Assembly: GCF_024972755.1 (NCBI RefSeq)
Contig: NZ_CP087724.1
Span: forward strand, 930,001-994,000
DNA: 64,000 bases
Direction of reading: 5' to 3'
Origin: Halanaeroarchaeum sp. HSR-CO
GTDB taxonomy: Archaea > Halobacteriota > Halobacteria > Halobacteriales > Halobacteriaceae
Of the stretch, positions 42,999 to 53,120 are shown one piece after another. The notes under the pieces were generated by a model. It made no database searches. It was not told the DNA's origin and saw nothing but the letters and a program-made list of their open reading frames with translations. Positions within the stretch are counted from its first letter, which is position 1; each line of letters starts with the position of its first letter. The position numbers and the translations under genes were made by a program.

Positions 42999-43223
42999 AT
43001 GGTCTTCGCCGTCCCCGCTGTCGTCGGTATCCCTGGCGGTCTCGAACTCTTGATCATCCTCTTCATCTTCGTCCTCCTGTTCGGGATTCCATTGACGATC
43101 CTGTTGTTCCTCGGTTATCGGCTCACGGACAAAGTGGGCGAATCGGCCGTCTCCGAGGACCGCCTCGAAGAACTCGAAGCCGAGGTCACGGAGCTCAGGG
43201 AGCGACTGGAGGACGACCAATGA
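42999..43223 (+). CDS. Mini membrane protein with coiled-coil tail (TatA-like layout)
   Basis: A 74-residue protein: a Gly/Pro turn, one long hydrophobic helix (LELLIILFIFVLLFGIPLTILLFLG, about 15-40), then an amphipathic coiled coil (EDRLEELEAEVTELRERLEDD). The layout resembles TatA but the FG hinge and the amphipathic TatA helix are not clear, so it is left unassigned. Its stop overlaps the CPBP protease start (ATGA), making the pair translationally coupled and suggesting a common role. Confidence 0.7.
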   Translation: MVFAVPAVVGIPGGLELLIILFIFVLLFGIPLTILLFLGYRLTDKVGESAVSEDRLEELEAEVTELRERLEDDQ

Positions 43224-44113
43224 GCGACGAGTCACGTGACGAGACGAGTGACCGCGACTGGGATGGGGCGGACCGGGACGCCATCGCTTCCACCGAGCGT
43301 GACCGGTCCGTGGCGGTCGACAGCGAGCCGTCGCCAGCGGATCGTCCGCCGATCGAGGTCCAGAAACAGGAGAGTCCGCTGTACGCCTTGCTGGGCGCGC
43401 TGCTCGTAGCCGTCGGCGGGATCGCCGGTGCGGTCGCCGCCAGCGGCGTGGTGTTTCTCGGCATCTCCCTGTTCGCCCTGTCGCTCTCTCCAGTAGCGTC
43501 GTTCGGGCTGTCGTTTCTTGCCGGGGGCGTCGGATTCGTCGGCGTCGCCCTCCTCTACATCCGGTATCGGGGGAGAGACCCGATCCAGTACATCGGATTC
43601 CGGATCCCGAACTGGCAGGACCTCAAGTGGATCGTCGGCGGGTATCTCGGGGCGATGGCCCTCGTGGTGGCGAGTGGTATCGCGTTGACGGCGCTCCAGG
43701 TGGACCCGGAGACGACCAACCGTGCTGCGGAGGCCGGTCTAGAACGGCCGGAACTGCTCCTGTGGCTCGTTCCACTCTCCTTTCTCGTCATCGCTCCCGG
43801 TGAGGAACTTCTCTTCCGGGGAACGGTACAGAGTCGGCTCCGTGAGGCGTTCTCGCCGGCCGTCGCCATCACCATCACCGCCGCGGTGTTCGCCGTCCTG
43901 CACTTCTTCTCCCTGACCGGGGGTGCCGGTGGTCGGTTCATCGCCATCTCGATCCTATTCTTGCCGAGTCTGGTCTTCGGGGCCGTCTACGAGTACACCG
44001 GGAACATCGTCGCCTCGATGCTGGTCCACGGCGCCTACAACTCGACGCTGGTGCTGTTGGTGTACGTCACGCTCCAGCAGTTCCCCGCAGAAGAACTCGC
44101 GGTACTGCTCTAG
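43220..44113 (+). CDS. CPBP-family intramembrane metalloprotease
   Basis: A 297-residue membrane protein with an acidic, disordered N-terminus (about 1-50) and 7-8 helices. The CPBP (Abi/Rce1) motifs are present: APGEELLFRGTVQSRLR (the EExxxR glutamates and arginine), then VFAVLHFF with the first metal histidine, and VHGAYNS near the end with the second. These proteases cleave within membranes or process prenylated proteins and are sometimes tied to bacteriocin immunity. It overlaps the mini membrane protein gene by 4 nt and abuts the convergent DUF5789 gene. Confidence 0.9.
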   Translation: MSDESRDETSDRDWDGADRDAIASTERDRSVAVDSEPSPADRPPIEVQKQESPLYALLGALLVAVGGIAGAVAASGVVFLGISLFALSLSPVASFGLSFLAGGVGFVGVALLYIRYRGRDPIQYIGFRIPNWQDLKWIVGGYLGAMALVVASGIALTALQVDPETTNRAAEAGLERPELLLWLVPLSFLVIAPGEELLFRGTVQSRLREAFSPAVAITITAAVFAVLHFFSLTGGAGGRFIAISILFLPSLVFGAVYEYTGNIVASMLVHGAYNSTLVLLVYVTLQQFPAEELAVLL

Positions 44114-44521: not shown

Positions 44522-45418
44522 ATGCCGAGCCTCGGGGACACGTACGAACGACGGGCCGGGACCGCCAGTCGCAAACAGGTGGTCCTGGGAACGGGGCTCT
44601 TCGCGACGGGGGCGCTGCTCGTCGTCGGGGGCATCCTCGCTGGCGCGACGGGCCTGTTGATAGAGAACGGCTTCTCGGTGCTGGGGAGCCGTGAGATCGG
44701 CGCCACGCTCGCCGCACTGGGGTTGCCGGCGGTCTTCGTGGGCATCACCATCGTCCTGCCGGCGTCGAAGGTCCACCGCGCAGCGACGGTATTCGGGTCG
44801 GGGATGGCCATCCTCGGCGTGATGCTCTTCCGCTATGCGTACCCGGACCGATGGTACGCCGGTGCCGGGATTCCGTCGTCGGTGACCCTCGCGGCGGTGC
44901 TCGTGTACTCCGTCGGCGTCATCGTCACCTTCTGGGCGCTGTTCACGGCCGTCGCGACGTTCAAGACCCGGAACGATCCAGGCGGGACCGTCTCGCTGTC
45001 GGTGACGACTGGTGGGGCCGCATCGACCGTCGAGGCCGCCCGCGAGGACTTCCACGCCGCGAAATCCGCAATCGGCGGGGCGGTCGGCGTCTTCGGTGGC
45101 GTGGAGGACCCCGAACCACTCTACCTCGATTCGGGGTCCAGCGTGGGCACCTCCGCCTCGGACGGCGGCACCGCTACAAACGCGGACATCACCTCGCCGA
45201 AAGACCGGTCACGGCCCGAATCCCGGCCCGACGAGGGCGTCGAGGTCGTGAAAGGCAAACGGCACGCAGACGTCGAACCAGACCGATACTGCGGGAACTG
45301 TACACACTTCGATTACGAGCGAGATGGCGGTTCGATGCAGCCCTACTGCGGCCTCTACGAGGAGTCGATGGACGACATGGAGGCCTGCGAATGGTGGGAG
45401 ACGAACAGCGGCTCATAG
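44522..45418 (+). CDS. Membrane protein with C-terminal cysteine cluster (DUF7139-like)
   Basis: A 298-residue protein with about five membrane helices (roughly residues 22-45, 57-77, 82-100, 113-140). An acidic disordered region follows (about 190-260). A C-terminal module has four spaced cysteines: YCGNCTHFDY, QPYCGLY and MEACEWWE (C-x2-C-x14-C-x11-C), likely a metal or redox site. Homologues are haloarchaeal and uncharacterised. GGTTAATG about 28 nt upstream supports a leaderless ATG at 44522. Its 3' end overlaps the convergent Mut7-C gene by 6 nt. Confidence 0.8.
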   Translation: MPSLGDTYERRAGTASRKQVVLGTGLFATGALLVVGGILAGATGLLIENGFSVLGSREIGATLAALGLPAVFVGITIVLPASKVHRAATVFGSGMAILGVMLFRYAYPDRWYAGAGIPSSVTLAAVLVYSVGVIVTFWALFTAVATFKTRNDPGGTVSLSVTTGGAASTVEAAREDFHAAKSAIGGAVGVFGGVEDPEPLYLDSGSSVGTSASDGGTATNADITSPKDRSRPESRPDEGVEVVKGKRHADVEPDRYCGNCTHFDYERDGGSMQPYCGLYEESMDDMEACEWWETNSGS

Positions 45419-45871
45419 CCGTTCTATCCGGTCTGCGACGTCGTCCCAGTGGCTTCCTTTCCAGAAAAGCTGGCCACAGTCACGACAGCGCCAGCACTGG
45501 CGGTTCGCGGGATCCGGCGCGTCCTCGGGCGTCTCCGCTCCGTCCGGCAGTTCCGTCAGCGCACCGTTGCACGCAGCGCAGCGCCGAGGTTCCGAAAGCG
45601 TCAGCTCGAACCCCGCCGCCGCGAGCTCGGCGAGTTGGTCGTCGGCGTCCTTCGAGTGGAGGAGGACGGCGTCGTCGGTCCGGTCCGCGAGTGTCACGTC
45701 TCGGGTAAGCAGCACTCGTCCTTCGGATTCGGCGAGGGTCTTGACCGCGTCGTCCGCCTCGACGCCCCGTTCCAGCGCGTACGCCGTATCGTAGCCAACC
45801 ATCCGGAGGATAGTCCGGATTCCCCCGACCATCGCGTCGAGCAAGAGACGGGTATCCTCGGGCGTGGGCAT
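45413..45871 (-). CDS. Mut7-C RNAse domain (PIN-like) protein with zinc ribbon
   Basis: A 152-residue protein. The N-terminal part is a Mut7-C PIN-like fold: LLLDAMVGGIRTILRMVGYDT (early Asp), then GRVLLTRDVTLADR with the second acidic site. The C-terminal zinc ribbon has CAACNGAL and CRDCGQLF. Mut7-C proteins are predicted nucleases; the family is named after the C-terminal part of animal Mut7 exonuclease. The start codon overlaps the polX stop codon (TGATG), so it is translated with PolX and is the last gene of the DUF5788-polX-Mut7-C operon. Confidence 0.88.
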   Translation of the reverse strand: MPTPEDTRLLLDAMVGGIRTILRMVGYDTAYALERGVEADDAVKTLAESEGRVLLTRDVTLADRTDDAVLLHSKDADDQLAELAAAGFELTLSEPRRCAACNGALTELPDGAETPEDAPDPANRQCWRCRDCGQLFWKGSHWDDVADRIERL

Positions 45872-47619
45872 CAGTGGAGGAACTCGCGAACTCCATCGGC
45901 GTCCCGGGTGTTGAGCACGTCTGGCGGGCTCGCCCACCCACGACGAGCCGTGTGGATTCCGTACCGGAGGTTTCCGAACTCCTGTGGGCTGTGGGCGTCG
46001 GTATCGATGACGATGGTCGCTCCCGCGTCGATGGCGGTCTGGACGGCACTCCCCCAGAGGTCGAGTCGATGCGGATTGCTGTTTATCTCGAGGGCGACGT
46101 CGTGCTCAGCGGCCGCCGCCCCGAGCCTCGCCGGGTCGAATTCGATCCCCGGTCGCTGGTTGAGGAGACGGCCGCTCGGATGGCCGAGCACGTCTACCGC
46201 GGGGTGTTCGATCGCGGCGATCAGTCGTTCGGTCTGATCGTCCTCGGCAGTGAGTCCGCTGTGTGGCGAGGCGATGACGAGGTCGAGTTCCGCGAGGGTC
46301 TCGTCGTCGAGGTCTCCCACGGTCCCATCCGCCGCGATGTTGGCCTCGATCCCGGTGAACACCTCGATATCGACCGATTCGCCCGCTTCGTGGACGACCT
46401 CGAGTTGGTCAGCGACCTCCTCGTCGGTGAGGCCGGAATCGCCGAACACGCCCGGTCCTGCCGCGTGATCGGAGATGCAGAGGTAGTCGTGACCGAACTC
46501 GGCCGCGCCCTCCAGCATCTCCTCGACGGTGAACTCGCCGTCCGACCAGTCGGTGTGGGTGTGGAGGTCACCGCGGACGTCGTCGTGGTCGATGAGGTCC
46601 GGCAACTCGCCCGCCAGTGCGGCGTCGATCTCGCCCCGATCCTCCCGCATCTCGGGGGCGATCCAGGGGAGGTCTACAGCCTCGTAGACCGCCTCCTCGG
46701 TCTCGCTCGCGAGCAGCTCTCCCACTCGCTGTCCTGCGTCCGGGTCCGCCACGTCCGAGACATCGAAGATACCGTACTCGTTGATCTTCAACCCCTTCTC
46801 GATGGCGTGGTTGCGCAGGGTGATGTTGTGGTCTTTGCTCCCCGTGAAGTACTGCAAGGCGCTGCCGAACTCCGTCGGCGTGACCACGCGCAGATCGACT
46901 CGCATGTCGGCGATTCTGACGCTCGTCTTCGTCGGACCGGTCTCGATGACCGAATCGACGCGGTCCCAGTCGGCCATCGCGTCGGCGACCGATTCGCCCG
47001 CATCGCTTCCCACCAGGACGTCGACGTCGCCGATGGTCTCGCGCCACCGACGGATCGAACCGGCGACCTCGCAGCGTTCGACCACGTCGACCTCCTCGAG
47101 GTGGGCGAGCACGTCGTCGGCGACCGGACGGGCGTCGCCGAGGAGCTGGCGTTCCTGGGATTGGCGGGCGAACTCGACGTGTTCGAGGATGTTTGCCTCC
47201 GTCGTCTCGCCGAAGCCCGATACCTCGCGGACCTCGCCGTTCCGTGCGGCCGTTTCGAGTTCGTCGAGGGTGGTGATTCCCAGTGCTTCGTACAGTGCCG
47301 CGGCGGTCTTCGGCCCGACGCCCTCGACCCGGGTGAGCGTTTCCATGTCCACGGGCAGTCGGTCGCGTTCTTCTTCCAGTTCCGCTATCTCGCCAGTCTC
47401 GATGTACTCGATGACCTTCTCACCGATCCCATCGCCGACCCCGTCGATAGCGGTAACGGCGTCCAGTCCTTCGGCTGCCAGGGCCTCGATCGGTTCGGGA
47501 TGATCCTCGATGTTCTGGGCGGCCTTGCGGTAGGCACGCGGTTTGAAATCCACGTCCTGGGCCTCGAGGAGGGCTGCGTACTCCTCCAGCAACGCCGCGA
47601 CCTCGCCGTTCCGACTCAT
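45871..47619 (-). CDS. polX: DNA polymerase X with PHP 3'-5' exonuclease
   Basis: Family X repair polymerase of 582 residues. An 8-kDa-like helix-hairpin-helix N-terminus (GVGDGIGEKVIEYI and GVGPKTAAAL) precedes the nucleotidyltransferase palm (GSIRRWRETIGDVDVLV with the metal aspartates, then RVDLRVV). The C-terminal PHP domain starts DLHTHTDWSDG and includes SDHAAGPG, SPHSG and DTDAHS, the metal-binding set for exonuclease or AP-site repair. It overlaps DUF5788 by 4 nt at the start and Mut7-C by 1 nt at the end. Confidence 0.95.
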   Translation of the reverse strand: MSRNGEVAALLEEYAALLEAQDVDFKPRAYRKAAQNIEDHPEPIEALAAEGLDAVTAIDGVGDGIGEKVIEYIETGEIAELEEERDRLPVDMETLTRVEGVGPKTAAALYEALGITTLDELETAARNGEVREVSGFGETTEANILEHVEFARQSQERQLLGDARPVADDVLAHLEEVDVVERCEVAGSIRRWRETIGDVDVLVGSDAGESVADAMADWDRVDSVIETGPTKTSVRIADMRVDLRVVTPTEFGSALQYFTGSKDHNITLRNHAIEKGLKINEYGIFDVSDVADPDAGQRVGELLASETEEAVYEAVDLPWIAPEMREDRGEIDAALAGELPDLIDHDDVRGDLHTHTDWSDGEFTVEEMLEGAAEFGHDYLCISDHAAGPGVFGDSGLTDEEVADQLEVVHEAGESVDIEVFTGIEANIAADGTVGDLDDETLAELDLVIASPHSGLTAEDDQTERLIAAIEHPAVDVLGHPSGRLLNQRPGIEFDPARLGAAAAEHDVALEINSNPHRLDLWGSAVQTAIDAGATIVIDTDAHSPQEFGNLRYGIHTARRGWASPPDVLNTRDADGVREFLH

Positions 47620-48062
47620 CGCACCCGGGCCCCCGGTCCGCTGTCGTCGCTATCGTGGCCGAGTGCCTTCTTCAGGAATGCCAGCCAGCGCTTCTGGTCT
47701 GCCGTCTCGGCGGATTTTGACGCCTGGGTGAGATCGGTCTCGCCGAGCGATTCGAGTGCGTTCAAGGCGCGGTCGATGCCGACGATGGTCTCCACGAGTT
47801 CCTCACCTCGCGCACGATCGATGTCCTCGTGTTCCAGTTGCCTGCGGCGCTCCTGGCGTTCTGCACGGAGGCGTTTCTTGACGGAATCGACCCGTTCGCG
47901 GTGGTTGGCTGGAACCTCCGCTTGCCGTTTCGTCTCGAACACGAACGACTGCAACTCGAATGGCTCTCCCTGGAGGTCGATGGTCTCCGGGACGCTGGCC
48001 CCGACCGTCGCCCCGTCCCGACCGATCCGCTCGAGCAGCTGCTTTCGCTCGTACTCCTTCAC
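47616..48062 (-). CDS. DUF5788-like protein
   Basis: A 148-residue charged, helix-rich protein. Recognisable segments are KEYERKQLLERIGRDGATVGASVPETI near the N-terminus and a basic helix (RERVDSVKKRLRAERQERRRQL). Start choice: a GTG at 48062 is preferred over a GTG at 48086, because TATTTTG just upstream of 48086 fits a TATA box for a leaderless transcript starting near 48062. It is the first gene of the operon with PolX and Mut7-C. Function unknown; context suggests nucleic-acid repair. Confidence 0.78.
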   Translation of the reverse strand: MKEYERKQLLERIGRDGATVGASVPETIDLQGEPFELQSFVFETKRQAEVPANHRERVDSVKKRLRAERQERRRQLEHEDIDRARGEELVETIVGIDRALNALESLGETDLTQASKSAETADQKRWLAFLKKALGHDSDDSGPGARVR

Positions 48063-48197
48063 GCCCGAATATTGGCGTGGCGACACAAAATACCTGTCCG
48101 TCGGTGGGCCGGAACGGAGGGGATGGGCTGGCGATCGTGGGCGACGAATTCACTCTCACCGGAACTACTTTCCCCCGCTCGGACTAACGTGGGCCAA

Positions 48198-49106
48198 ATG
48201 GCGACGTGCGACGTGTGTGGGCGCGAAGAGGGGATGCCCTACCAATGTCGGCTCTGCGGTGGCACATTCTGTTCGGAGCACCGACTGCCCGAGGCCCACG
48301 ACTGTCCGGGACTCGATAACTGGAACGACCCCGGTGGTGTCTTCGATTCGGGGTTCGACGAGTCGGTCGATTCGAGTCGGTCATCGTCGCGCTCGGTGAC
48401 GGACGCGATCCCGATCGATACCGGGCCTGGGGGCGTTTTCGCGTACTTCCGGAACAACCTGACCTACCTCTTTCTCGCGTTGATGTGGGTCACCTTCCTG
48501 CTCGAAGCGATCGTCCTCTTCGTCCTGGGCGACGTCGTGCTGTTCCGGACGCTGTTCACGCTCTCCTCGGACAACGTCACCTACGTCTGGACGTGGGTGA
48601 CCTCGATCTTCGCCCACGACCCCGGTGGCTTCTTCCACATCTTCTTCAACAGCATCGTGCTGTACTTCTTCGGGCCGGTGGTCGAACGCCGGGTCGGGTC
48701 GAAGAAGTTCGTCGCGCTGTTCCTCATCAGCGGCGCCGTCGCGGGCCTCGCCCAGGTGCTCGCGGTCATGGCGGTCGGTGGCTCCACCTCGGTCCTCGGG
48801 GCGAGTGGTGCCATCGCCGCGCTCCTGGGCGTGCTGACGGTGTTGAACCCGAACCTCCGCATCTACCTCTACTTCATCATCCCGATGCCCCTGTGGGTCG
48901 CCACGGCGTTGTTCGCCGGCTACTCCATCATGGTGAGTACCGCTGGCGGCATCGGCTTCGGTGGCGTCGCCCAACTCGCCCACCTGGCCGGCCTGGGCAT
49001 CGGGCTGGCGTACGGAGTCGTCCTGAAGCGCCGGGGGGCCCGGGCGCCCCAGCAACTCCAGTTCGGCGGCCGGGGCGGCGGCCGTCGCGGCCGCGGCCGG
49101 TTCTGA
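48198..49106 (+). CDS. Rhomboid intramembrane protease with N-terminal AN1 zinc finger
   Basis: A 302-residue protein. Residues 4-36 form an AN1-type zinc finger (Cys4, Cys7, Cys17, Cys20, Cys25, His28, His34, Cys36). After an acidic linker come six membrane helices, with the catalytic serine in GASGAIAAL (Ser203) and histidine in QLAHLAG (His262). HIFFNSIVLYFFGP is the helix-2 motif. The tail (about 289-302) is an RG-rich stretch, GGRGGGRRGRGRF. AN1-rhomboids occur in haloarchaea; substrates are unknown. First gene of the operon with EndoV, SDR and glycerate kinase. Confidence 0.9.
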   Translation: MATCDVCGREEGMPYQCRLCGGTFCSEHRLPEAHDCPGLDNWNDPGGVFDSGFDESVDSSRSSSRSVTDAIPIDTGPGGVFAYFRNNLTYLFLALMWVTFLLEAIVLFVLGDVVLFRTLFTLSSDNVTYVWTWVTSIFAHDPGGFFHIFFNSIVLYFFGPVVERRVGSKKFVALFLISGAVAGLAQVLAVMAVGGSTSVLGASGAIAALLGVLTVLNPNLRIYLYFIIPMPLWVATALFAGYSIMVSTAGGIGFGGVAQLAHLAGLGIGLAYGVVLKRRGARAPQQLQFGGRGGGRRGRGRF

Positions 49107-49107
49107 G

Positions 49108-49899
49108 ATGGAGGTGGTCCGGCCAGAGTACCTCCCCGACCCTGCCCTCGACCGGGCAGCGATGGAAGCCCTCCAGCGGGCCATCGCAGACGACGCCCGC
49201 TTCGAAGACGACGGGCGCATCGACCCGGCCGAGTTGACGATCGACGAGCCGCTGGAACTGCCTGATGGTACCGTCTCCGTGTCACCCGCGACGACCGCCC
49301 CCATCGTCGTCGGAATCGACCAGGCGTTCGCCGAGGAACGTGCCGTGAGTGCCGCTATCGCCATTCAGGACGGTCGCGTGGTCGACTGGTCGGTCGGCCG
49401 CGAACCGCTCCAGCTGCCCTACATCCCCGGATTGCTGGCGTTTCGCGAGGCGGGCGCCATCGTCGACGCGCTCGAGGGCCTCTCCGTGGAGCCGACGCTG
49501 CTAGTCCTCGACGGGAGCGGCCGTCTCCACTTCCGGCAAGCCGGTATCGCGACCCACGTGGGTGTCGTCTTCGACGTTCCGGCCATCGGCGTGGCGAAGT
49601 CGTTGCTGTGCGGACGGCCGGCCCGATCACTGGCGGAGCCACTGCCGGCGGGGACGCGGGTGCCGATCCTCGCCGACGATTCGGTGGACGCAGACCTCGA
49701 CACCGTCATCGGGCACGCGTATCAGTCACGACAGTTCTCCTATCCCGAGCGTCGGCACGTGAACCCGTTGTTCGTCAGTCCGGGCCATCGGATCAGTGCC
49801 GAGACGACCGTCGAGGCCGTCGGAGCGTTGTCGGCGGGGTACAAACTCCCCGAGCCGACGCGACTGGCCGATCGGGCCGTCGACGTGTGCAAGGATTAA
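49108..49899 (+). CDS. nfi: Endonuclease V
   Basis: Nicks DNA or RNA one base 3' of deaminated adenine (inosine). The 263 residues contain the catalytic Asp in VVGIDQAF, LPYIPGLLAFREAGAIVDAL with the conserved Glu, and the second acidic motif LDGSGRLHFRQAGIATHVG, where HFR replaces the usual HPR. PAIGVAKSLL supplies the conserved lysine. It starts 2 nt after the rhomboid stop, so the two are almost certainly co-translated, and is followed 24 nt later by the SDR gene. Confidence 0.92.
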   Translation: MEVVRPEYLPDPALDRAAMEALQRAIADDARFEDDGRIDPAELTIDEPLELPDGTVSVSPATTAPIVVGIDQAFAEERAVSAAIAIQDGRVVDWSVGREPLQLPYIPGLLAFREAGAIVDALEGLSVEPTLLVLDGSGRLHFRQAGIATHVGVVFDVPAIGVAKSLLCGRPARSLAEPLPAGTRVPILADDSVDADLDTVIGHAYQSRQFSYPERRHVNPLFVSPGHRISAETTVEAVGALSAGYKLPEPTRLADRAVDVCKD

Positions 49900-52088: not shown

Positions 52089-53120
52089 TCACTGGAGGCA
52101 GGCGGCGACGACGCGGAGCATCCGTTCGCCGGCGACCTCGTCGGCGAACAGGGGGACCCGCTTGACGTCGTGGCCGCGGAACAGGTCTTGTGCGGACTGC
52201 AAGGCACCCTGTTGGACCGCCCACCGGCGCTGACAGAATTCGCAGTGTTCCAGGTCCGGTGAGACGAACGTCTCCTCGGGCACGTCGTCGGTCACCTGGG
52301 AGAGCGGCTCCATCACCCGGTTGACGACGACGGTACCGACGGGGATGCCGAACTCCTCGAGTCGGGAGCGGAGTCTGAGCGACTCCTGGACGGCCATCTC
52401 CTCCGGGACGGTGACGATGCGGAAGTCCGTCCGCTGCGGATCGCGGAGGATCGCTCGCAGCCGCTCCACCCGATCGGCGAGTTCGTCCAGGTCGTCCATG
52501 CCGTCTCCCTCGGCGGGCGCCTCCTCGCCGAACATTCCCTTTACGCCCTCCATCAGCCCGCCCAGGCGCTCGCGGAGGGCCACGAAGCGGCCGACCATCG
52601 AGTCCAGGAGTTCCGGCAGCTCGAGCAACCGGAGCGTGTGACCGGTCGGCGCGGTGTCCACGACGACGCGGTCGAATCGCTGGTCGTCGAGGTAGGTCAG
52701 GAGCAGTTGCATCGCGGCGGCCTCGTCGGCGCCCGGCATCTGTCCGCCCATCATCGGGTCGAACCCCTCGTCACCGAGGAGGTCGCCGAGCGGTCCCATC
52801 GCCGACCCGTCGTCCCCGAATATCGGCGCTTCGTCCATCGCTTTATCGGGATCGATCTCGACGCCGTATAGCGGGACGTCCTCGCGCAATCGCGTCGGTT
52901 CGTCGGGGATGTCCACGCCCAGCGTATCGGAGAGGGAATGGGCCGGGTCCGTGGAGACGACGAGCGTCGACGTCCCGTCCGTCGCGCTCGCGAGCGCGGT
53001 GGCCGCCGCCATCGTGGTCTTTCCCACGCCGCCCTTGCCACCGTACAGGACGTATTCGGCCGTCTCGGCGTCCAGTGCCGGCTCGAGGGAATCGACCGCC
53101 TCGACCGTCAGTTCGTCCAT
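52089..53120 (-). CDS. Get3/ArsA-family ATPase
   Basis: A 343-residue deviant Walker A ATPase. YGGKGGVGKTT (26-36) carries both P-loop lysines. Switch I is STDPAHSLSD and switch II is VVDTAPTGHTLRLLELP. The CxxC in EHCEFCQRRW, near residue 285, is the dimer zinc site of Get3-type proteins. Arsenite-site cysteines of bacterial ArsA are not seen. Members target tail-anchored membrane proteins or transport anions; Get3-like targeting is more likely here. Its stop abuts that of the glycerate kinase gene. Confidence 0.9.
   Translation of the reverse strand: MDELTVEAVDSLEPALDAETAEYVLYGGKGGVGKTTMAAATALASATDGTSTLVVSTDPAHSLSDTLGVDIPDEPTRLREDVPLYGVEIDPDKAMDEAPIFGDDGSAMGPLGDLLGDEGFDPMMGGQMPGADEAAAMQLLLTYLDDQRFDRVVVDTAPTGHTLRLLELPELLDSMVGRFVALRERLGGLMEGVKGMFGEEAPAEGDGMDDLDELADRVERLRAILRDPQRTDFRIVTVPEEMAVQESLRLRSRLEEFGIPVGTVVVNRVMEPLSQVTDDVPEETFVSPDLEHCEFCQRRWAVQQGALQSAQDLFRGHDVKRVPLFADEVAGERMLRVVAACLQ

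Follow-up and report, generated by a model that had tools for sequence, protein, structure and literature searches.

An AN1 zinc finger fused to a haloarchaeal rhomboid protease: distribution of the fusion and a possible docking role

The rhomboid gene and the features of its product

The window (the whole stretch of DNA analysed, 64,000 nucleotides of contig NZ_CP087724.1 from Halanaeroarchaeum sp. HSR-CO) carries a gene encoding a rhomboid protease with an AN1 zinc finger at its N-terminus and a tail rich in glycine and arginine at its C-terminus. The reading frame is exact, starting with an ATG at 48198 and ending with a TGA stop at 49104-49106, and encodes 302 residues. The features considered are the following:

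48198..49106, + strand: coding sequence of the AN1-rhomboid protease, 302 aa, almost certainly of the RhoII/Rho2 type (Pfam, reading frame, class-wide matches)
48207..48317, + strand: AN1 zinc finger, residues 4-40, C6H2 (PF01428, 5.6e-13; ligands in 87/87; Cuz1 5ij4 is the best PDB AN1 chain by profile)
48330..48371, + strand: conserved linker motif, residues 45-58 (PGGVFDSGFDESVD), in the low-confidence linker (VFDSGFD in 71/87; pLDDT 50-61)
48459..48524, + strand: predicted first transmembrane helix, residues 88-109 (AlphaFold2 model)
48582..49031, + strand: Rhomboid domain, Pfam residues 129-278 (PF01694, 2.1e-26; GlpG at Foldseek ranks 1-16)
48804..48806, + strand: codon of the predicted catalytic Ser203, in GASGA (motif in the translation; alignment)
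48981..48983, + strand: codon of the predicted catalytic His262, in AHLAG (motif in the translation; alignment)
49065..49103, + strand: Gly/Arg-rich C-terminal tail, residues 290-302, of low model confidence (translation; tail counts; pLDDT)
49108..49899, + strand: endonuclease V gene, a conserved neighbour, one base after the rhomboid stop (PF04493, 3.5e-50; 39/43 loci)

Both domains were recognized by Pfam above the cut-off, the finger at residues 4-40 (PF01428, zf-AN1, E 5.6e-13) and the protease at residues 129-278 (PF01694, Rhomboid, E 2.1e-26). An AlphaFold2 model built on 34 haloarchaeal sequences had a mean pLDDT of 82.8 and contained six long helices of high confidence, which were read as TM1-6. 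In a Foldseek search with this model ranks 1 to 16 were all GlpG structures. E. coli GlpG and its homolog 2nr9 share with the window protein the rhomboid fold, the Ser/His dyad and the HxxxN and GxSG motifs, whereas the matched chains have neither an AN1 finger nor a Gly-rich tail and are 23-26% identical to it in the Foldseek alignments. Judging from the six-TM GlpG fold, the N- and C-terminal ends should both be cytosolic. The AN1 finger was modelled with a pLDDT of 79-85 for residues 1-30 and 70 for residues 31-40, the linker (residues 41-80) with 50-61 and the tail (residues 291-302) with values under 50. The linker and the tail, with this low model confidence, are probably disordered.

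The sequence hallmarks of rhomboid proteases (MEROPS S54) are all found, namely six TM helices, the GxSG serine, the histidine of TM6 and HxxxN. Residues H147, N151, G201, S203 and H262 are invariant across the 34 rows of the haloarchaeal alignment A1 and also across the 27 rows of alignment A2 (17 outside the class, 10 belonging to it), in which the AN1 ligands are invariant together with HxxxN, GAS and His262. Halobacterial orthologs were counted from 96 rows, three of which are the window gene itself, giving 87 distinct sequences, and G[AS]SGA was found in 87/87 of them. A pattern for the catalytic histidine, [AG]H.[AG]G, matched 47/87 and was abandoned as too narrow, since other residues precede the last Gly and His262 does not vary in either alignment. 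The original prediction had read the domains correctly: the AN1 finger has its full set of eight ligands, the rhomboid core contains Ser203 and His262, and a tail rich in Gly and Arg follows. Its sequence marks the protein as an intramembrane serine protease whose active site is complete, and proteolytic activity is predicted.

The AN1 finger and the linker

The ligands of the finger are C4, C7, C17, C20, C25, H28, H34 and C36, which is the C6H2 set at AN1 spacing. All eight at their exact spacing, as well as HRLPExHxC, are kept in 87/87 distinct halobacterial sequences, window protein included. The best AN1 structure retrieved by Foldseek was the Cuz1 finger 5ij4 (E 0.30, prob 1.00). When 27 archaeal AN1 fingers were combined into a profile and compared with the PDB, Cuz1 5ij4 (4.4e-11) came above the plant and human AN1 chains; the C2H2 zinc finger chains placed above Cuz1 in this search were discarded as sums of weak matches and not AN1. 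With the window protein as sole query Cuz1 (4.1e-4) and the plant AN1 chain 1wg2 (4.0e-4) tied.

The fingers of yeast Cuz1 and human ZFAND1 and ZFAND2 have the same C6H2 AN1 arrangement, with L/M-P-aromatic at the LDFLP position and HRL.E.H.C, but these proteins are eukaryotic and without a rhomboid domain, and the window finger does not have the exact LDFLP. Neither LDFLP nor RDFLP occurs between its first and second CxxC, where EGMPY is found instead, which places it outside the LDFLP subfamily. The LDFLP motif is the one that defines the Cuz1/AIRAP/ZFAND1 group (PMC5035049). Among the distinct halobacterial N-termini position 14 is Pro in 83/83, position 13 is Met (59) or Leu (24) and position 15 is Tyr.

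In the linker VFDSGFD was found in 71/87 distinct orthologs and the full VFDSGFDDSV in 51/87, the surrounding linker being otherwise variable. This conserved stretch looks like a short binding motif.

The C-terminal tail

The tail of the window protein (residues 290-302) is GGRGGGRRGRGRF, and a relative of the same genus with 85% identity (L006) ends GGGGGGGAGGRRRGPGRF. Tail statistics were preferably taken from counts over the last 13, 20 and 25 residues of 86 distinct complete proteins; earlier statistics, from which the GGPGG, RGG and Phe-end counts derive, used a loose anchor that gave tail lengths of 10 to 53. The last 13 residues of the 86 tails are 53% Gly, 20% Arg and 18% Pro with 2 of 1118 residues acidic, whereas acidic residues make up 6.1% of the rest of the protein. 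A C-terminal Phe was found in 61/86 orthologs and Arg-Phe in 45/86, while under the loose definition GGPGG was present in 54/86 tails and RGG in 30/86.

The conservation of the RG-rich tail had been put forward as a check on the original prediction. A basic, Gly-rich tail is indeed not specific to this strain, whereas the RG pattern is local, at least three RG in the last 20 residues being found in 3/86 orthologs, the window protein among them. RGG-box RNA-binding proteins are characterized by two or more closely spaced RGG. The tail of the window protein contains a single RGG, and 2/86 orthologs have two or more RGG within their final 25 residues; since the ortholog tails are mostly Gly/Pro repeats, the proposal of an RNA-binding RG tail is left without support.

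None of the 17 AN1-rhomboids aligned from outside the class Halobacteria has the long tail. One protein from outside the class, L133, still ends SQLNFGNRGGPF, and an aromatic residue in the last three positions (16/18) and Lys or Arg in the last six (15/18) are frequent there. Conserved among the orthologs is a tail of Gly, Pro and Arg with almost no acidic residues and, usually, a final Phe; it most likely represents a flexible basic appendage and not an RGG box. As a speculation, a Gly-rich end could also protect the adaptor from its own unfoldase, which might otherwise draw it in. The presence of a derlin-like SHP box in the tail was considered and dropped, as such a likeness is uninformative in a Gly-rich sequence.

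Distribution of the AN1-rhomboid fusion

Haloarchaea have been described in a 2015 review as having unusual rhomboids with an N-terminal AN-1 Zn-finger, and RhoII of Haloferax volcanii as having six TMS and the finger (PMC4343526). The architecture is therefore already published and the gene is an ordinary one for a haloarchaeon. Haloferax volcanii RhoII/Rho2 (HVO_0727) is reported with the same six TMS, the N-terminal AN-1 finger and a predicted operon with endV (PMC4343526, PMC11985538). The window gene answers to this description, with six TMS and an N-terminal AN1 followed by endV, and differs in coming from another haloarchaeon and in a tail richer in RG than most orthologs read. We are highly confident that the protein is a haloarchaeal rhomboid of the RhoII/Rho2 type; its probable orthology to HVO_0727 rests on the architecture, the neighbouring gene and the class-wide presence.

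The protein query matched 292/292 of the class genomes searched (77/77 genera), and among the matches listed the class rows span residue 1 to at least 295, which argues that the joining of AN1 and rhomboid is not due to chance. In the phylum sample, in which the class members are included, zf-AN1 matched 245/392 genomes (217 over the cut-off). Among 14 control genomes an AN1 match was obtained in H. volcanii alone, the other control archaea (Methanocaldococcus jannaschii, Sulfolobus acidocaldarius and Methanosarcina acetivorans) giving none. Outside the class, 18/20 high-scoring AN1 loci were AN1-rhomboids (17 aligned, L134 by reading), a proportion that is not an unbiased rate as the 20 loci were drawn from the best-scoring rows. 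The AN1-rhomboid fusion reaches well beyond the Halobacteria. An AN1 finger had also been suspected in the bacterial matches L079-L111; the two that extend furthest N-terminally, L079 and L087, have none in their translations.

Divergent copies of the AN1-rhomboid were also noticed in Halorubrum salipaludis (L068:6001-6921) and Halobellus rufus (L074:6001-6921), with short tails that end in RCRF and RRRF.

AN1 fingers on other archaeal membrane proteins

All of the high-scoring AN1 loci fetched from outside the class (20/20) encode membrane proteins, including the two that are not rhomboids: L141 combines AN1, TM and CAP, and L148 consists of TM, AN1 and TM with a weak transglutaminase-like match. 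Moreover, 19 distinct proteins were fetched from six genomes that each gave several AN1 matches, three of them Halobacteria and three of family f15; 5/19 were rhomboids. A hydrophobic segment, defined as a 19-residue Kyte-Doolittle mean above 1.7 (L162 was judged by eye), was present in 17/19 and in neither L167 nor L169; as loci and genomes had been selected for the strength or number of their matches and some of the 19 proteins are paralogs, 17/19 is a lead and neither figure is a rate. Among the 19 are L165, a DUF553 transglutaminase-like protein with AN1 (5.1e-49), and L159, which resembles M50 proteins (2.0e-4, below the Pfam cut-off) and has its AN1 at the C-terminus. L161, L162, L163, L168 and L171 are short AN1 proteins whose single TM is C-terminal; the finger of L162 lacks the first CxxC. 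As a lead, the archaeal AN1 fingers sampled appear to sit mainly on membrane proteins.

Neighbouring genes

Endonuclease V (EndoV) was present in 41/43 named halobacterial loci with a length of at least 4 kb, and in 39/43 it lies on the same strand within 300 bases downstream. It is about 2 kb away in L067 and L076 and was not found in the fetched flanks of L068 and L074, the species of the latter having another copy (L054) with EndoV. The EndoV start is at most 20 bases from the rhomboid stop in 30/41, the nearest possible start codon having been chosen. In H. volcanii an operon of rho2 and endV has been predicted (PMC11985538) and EndoV is HVO_0726 (PMC7776575), the number next to HVO_0727. 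The rho2 mutant of this species is reported to recover poorly from UV (PMC11985538), a phenotype that could come from the co-operonic endV.

Other genes of the region were less constant. A GET3/TRC40/ArsA family ATPase gene (52089-53120, TIGR00345, 2.3e-73) lies about 3 kb downstream of the rhomboid gene, and a homolog was found in the fetched flank of 22/44 loci; a neighbourhood of membrane-protein biogenesis is possible. Upstream, a divergent cluster (45413-48086) encodes DUF5788, a PolX-type polymerase with PHP and a Mut7-C RNase; DUF5788 and PolX were matched in 15/44 loci and Mut7-C in 13/44. A second membrane protease gene, encoding a Rce1-like CAAX endopeptidase, is also nearby (43223-44113, PF02517, 2.4e-20) and was found in 3/44 loci.

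Possible roles of the AN1 finger

Our best explanation as a whole, adopted tentatively and held to be somewhat less than probable, is that the protein is a RhoII-type rhomboid whose AN1 finger docks an AAA+ partner. The finger on its flexible linker would be a docking module bringing a cytosolic partner to the protease, and the likeliest partner would be an AAA+ proteolytic machine (PAN/20S or Cdc48-type). Cleavage in the membrane by the rhomboid would then be coupled to the extraction and degradation of the product, in the manner of YqgP-FtsH in Bacillus, and the tail would serve as a flexible basic appendage. This mechanism, drawn from analogies, is possible and on balance doubtful.

In favour of docking count the closeness of the finger to Cuz1 in the profile and Foldseek comparisons and the position of most sampled archaeal AN1 fingers on membrane proteins; the tie of 1wg2 with Cuz1 counts against it. 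Several published findings also bear on it. Binding of Cuz1 to the proteasome is reported to be lost on zinc chelation, AN1 being necessary and not sufficient, while Cdc48 is bound through the Ubl domain and neither Cdc48 nor the proteasome requires LDFLP for its binding (PMC5035049). For ZFAND5, a review describes AN1 as sitting between subdomains of the Rpt5 ATPase in cryo-EM and A20 as binding ubiquitin (PMC11799193). In addition, the rhomboid YqgP of Bacillus subtilis works together with an AAA+ protease: it presents substrate to FtsH, for which its metal-binding cytosolic domain at the N-terminus is essential. The likeness to YqgP is one of description, and its domain is there described for Mn/Zn sensing, without AN1 (PMC7231995). 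Because of these Cuz1, ZFAND5 and YqgP facts, taken together as analogies, docking of an AAA+ machine is suggested to be more plausible for the finger than the reading of tags, and an AN1-AAA+ contact in archaea is putative. Rpn1 and Rpn2 are 19S subunits that are not known from archaea. They are the contacts reported for Cuz1 and ZFAND2A (Rpn2 and Rpn1), and this speaks against docking (PMC11799193). A strict need for AN1 is disfavoured because overexpressed rho1 is reported to restore motility to the rho2 mutant (PMC11985538); Rho1 is presented without AN1 where its domains are described (PMC4343526).

PAN (TIGR01242) was matched in 39/39 chosen genomes and over the cut-off in 37; as 20 of the 39 have no AN1 match, its occurrence carries no information on docking. 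The two best PAN matches of G000 scored 496 and 486 bits, just under the cut-off of 500, and an AN1-rhomboid genome that is 78% complete (G318) gave weaker matches, none over the cut-off.

As an alternative, the AN1 finger may gate the protease, as a regulatory or metal-responsive domain, with no partner protein, like the N-terminal domain of YqgP, which is reported to bind Mn2+/Zn2+, to facilitate cleavage and to be essential for the FtsH adaptor function (PMC7231995). The conserved linker motif (VFDSGFD, 71/87), which adjoins the finger, also counts in favour. However, high rigidity and stability are described for the Cuz1 AN1 (PMC5035049), which would suit sensing poorly, and the finger is also borne by several other kinds of membrane protein. 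Moreover, the trace-element dependent shape phenotype of H. volcanii is attributed to rho1, rho2 being described without substantial shape change (PMC11985538). We regard gating by metal as unlikely.

The original prediction had the protease steered by ubiquitin-like (SAMP) tags or by nucleic acid. In the first case the AN1 finger would read SAMP tags on membrane substrates. AN1 does occur in proteins of ubiquitin pathways, an earlier study had Cuz1 binding longer ubiquitin chains (cited in PMC5035049), and Ubl-modified TBP2 is reported to be degraded by proteasomes in H. volcanii (PMC4895103). E1-like ThiF, matched in 34/39 chosen genomes (33 over the cut-off), exceeded the cut-off in G000 and in 17/18 outside-class AN1-rhomboid genomes against 15/20 genomes without AN1, a lean too slight to weigh in so few genomes. 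Nevertheless one AN1-rhomboid genome, G598 (96% complete), gave very weak ThiF matches only (2.1e-4). NMR is reported to have given no shift with mono-ubiquitin for the Cuz1 AN1, and another study is cited as finding no direct binding (PMC5035049); in ZFAND5 the ubiquitin binder is given as A20 and not AN1 (PMC11799193). Tag reading of this kind is in our judgement quite improbable.

A link of the protease to nucleic acid metabolism, through binding of RNA or DNA by the Gly/Arg tail and the adjoining endonuclease V, is very unlikely. In its favour, the tails are basic and nearly free of acidic residues, EndoV is within 300 bases in 39/43 named loci and the rho2 mutant recovers poorly from UV (PMC11985538). 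Against it, Gly and Pro dominate the tails, two or more RGG are rare, the long tail is missing outside the class and the UV effect could stem from endV.

Docking of an AAA+ machine could also be extended to the other AN1 proteins. AN1 in these archaea would then be a general membrane-side docking tag for one shared cytosolic machine (PAN/20S or Cdc48), carried by rhomboids, one M50-like protein, proteins with transglutaminase-like or CAP ectodomains and small tail-anchored proteins. An archaeal counterpart to ER-associated degradation would be built around the AN1-rhomboid, and the eukaryotic AN1 proteins (Cuz1, ZFAND1/2/5) would keep an ancestral binding to ATPase rings and not to ubiquitin. 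We offer this wider scheme as a conjecture that is unlikely to hold.

The main interest lies less in the gene itself than in the occurrence of the AN1-rhomboid fusion beyond the Halobacteria and of AN1, as a lead, mainly on membrane proteins. Should AN1 prove to dock an AAA+ machine, these proteins would represent an archaeal forerunner, open to testing, of the quality control of membrane proteins, and this would hint at a role of AN1 before eukaryotic ubiquitin.
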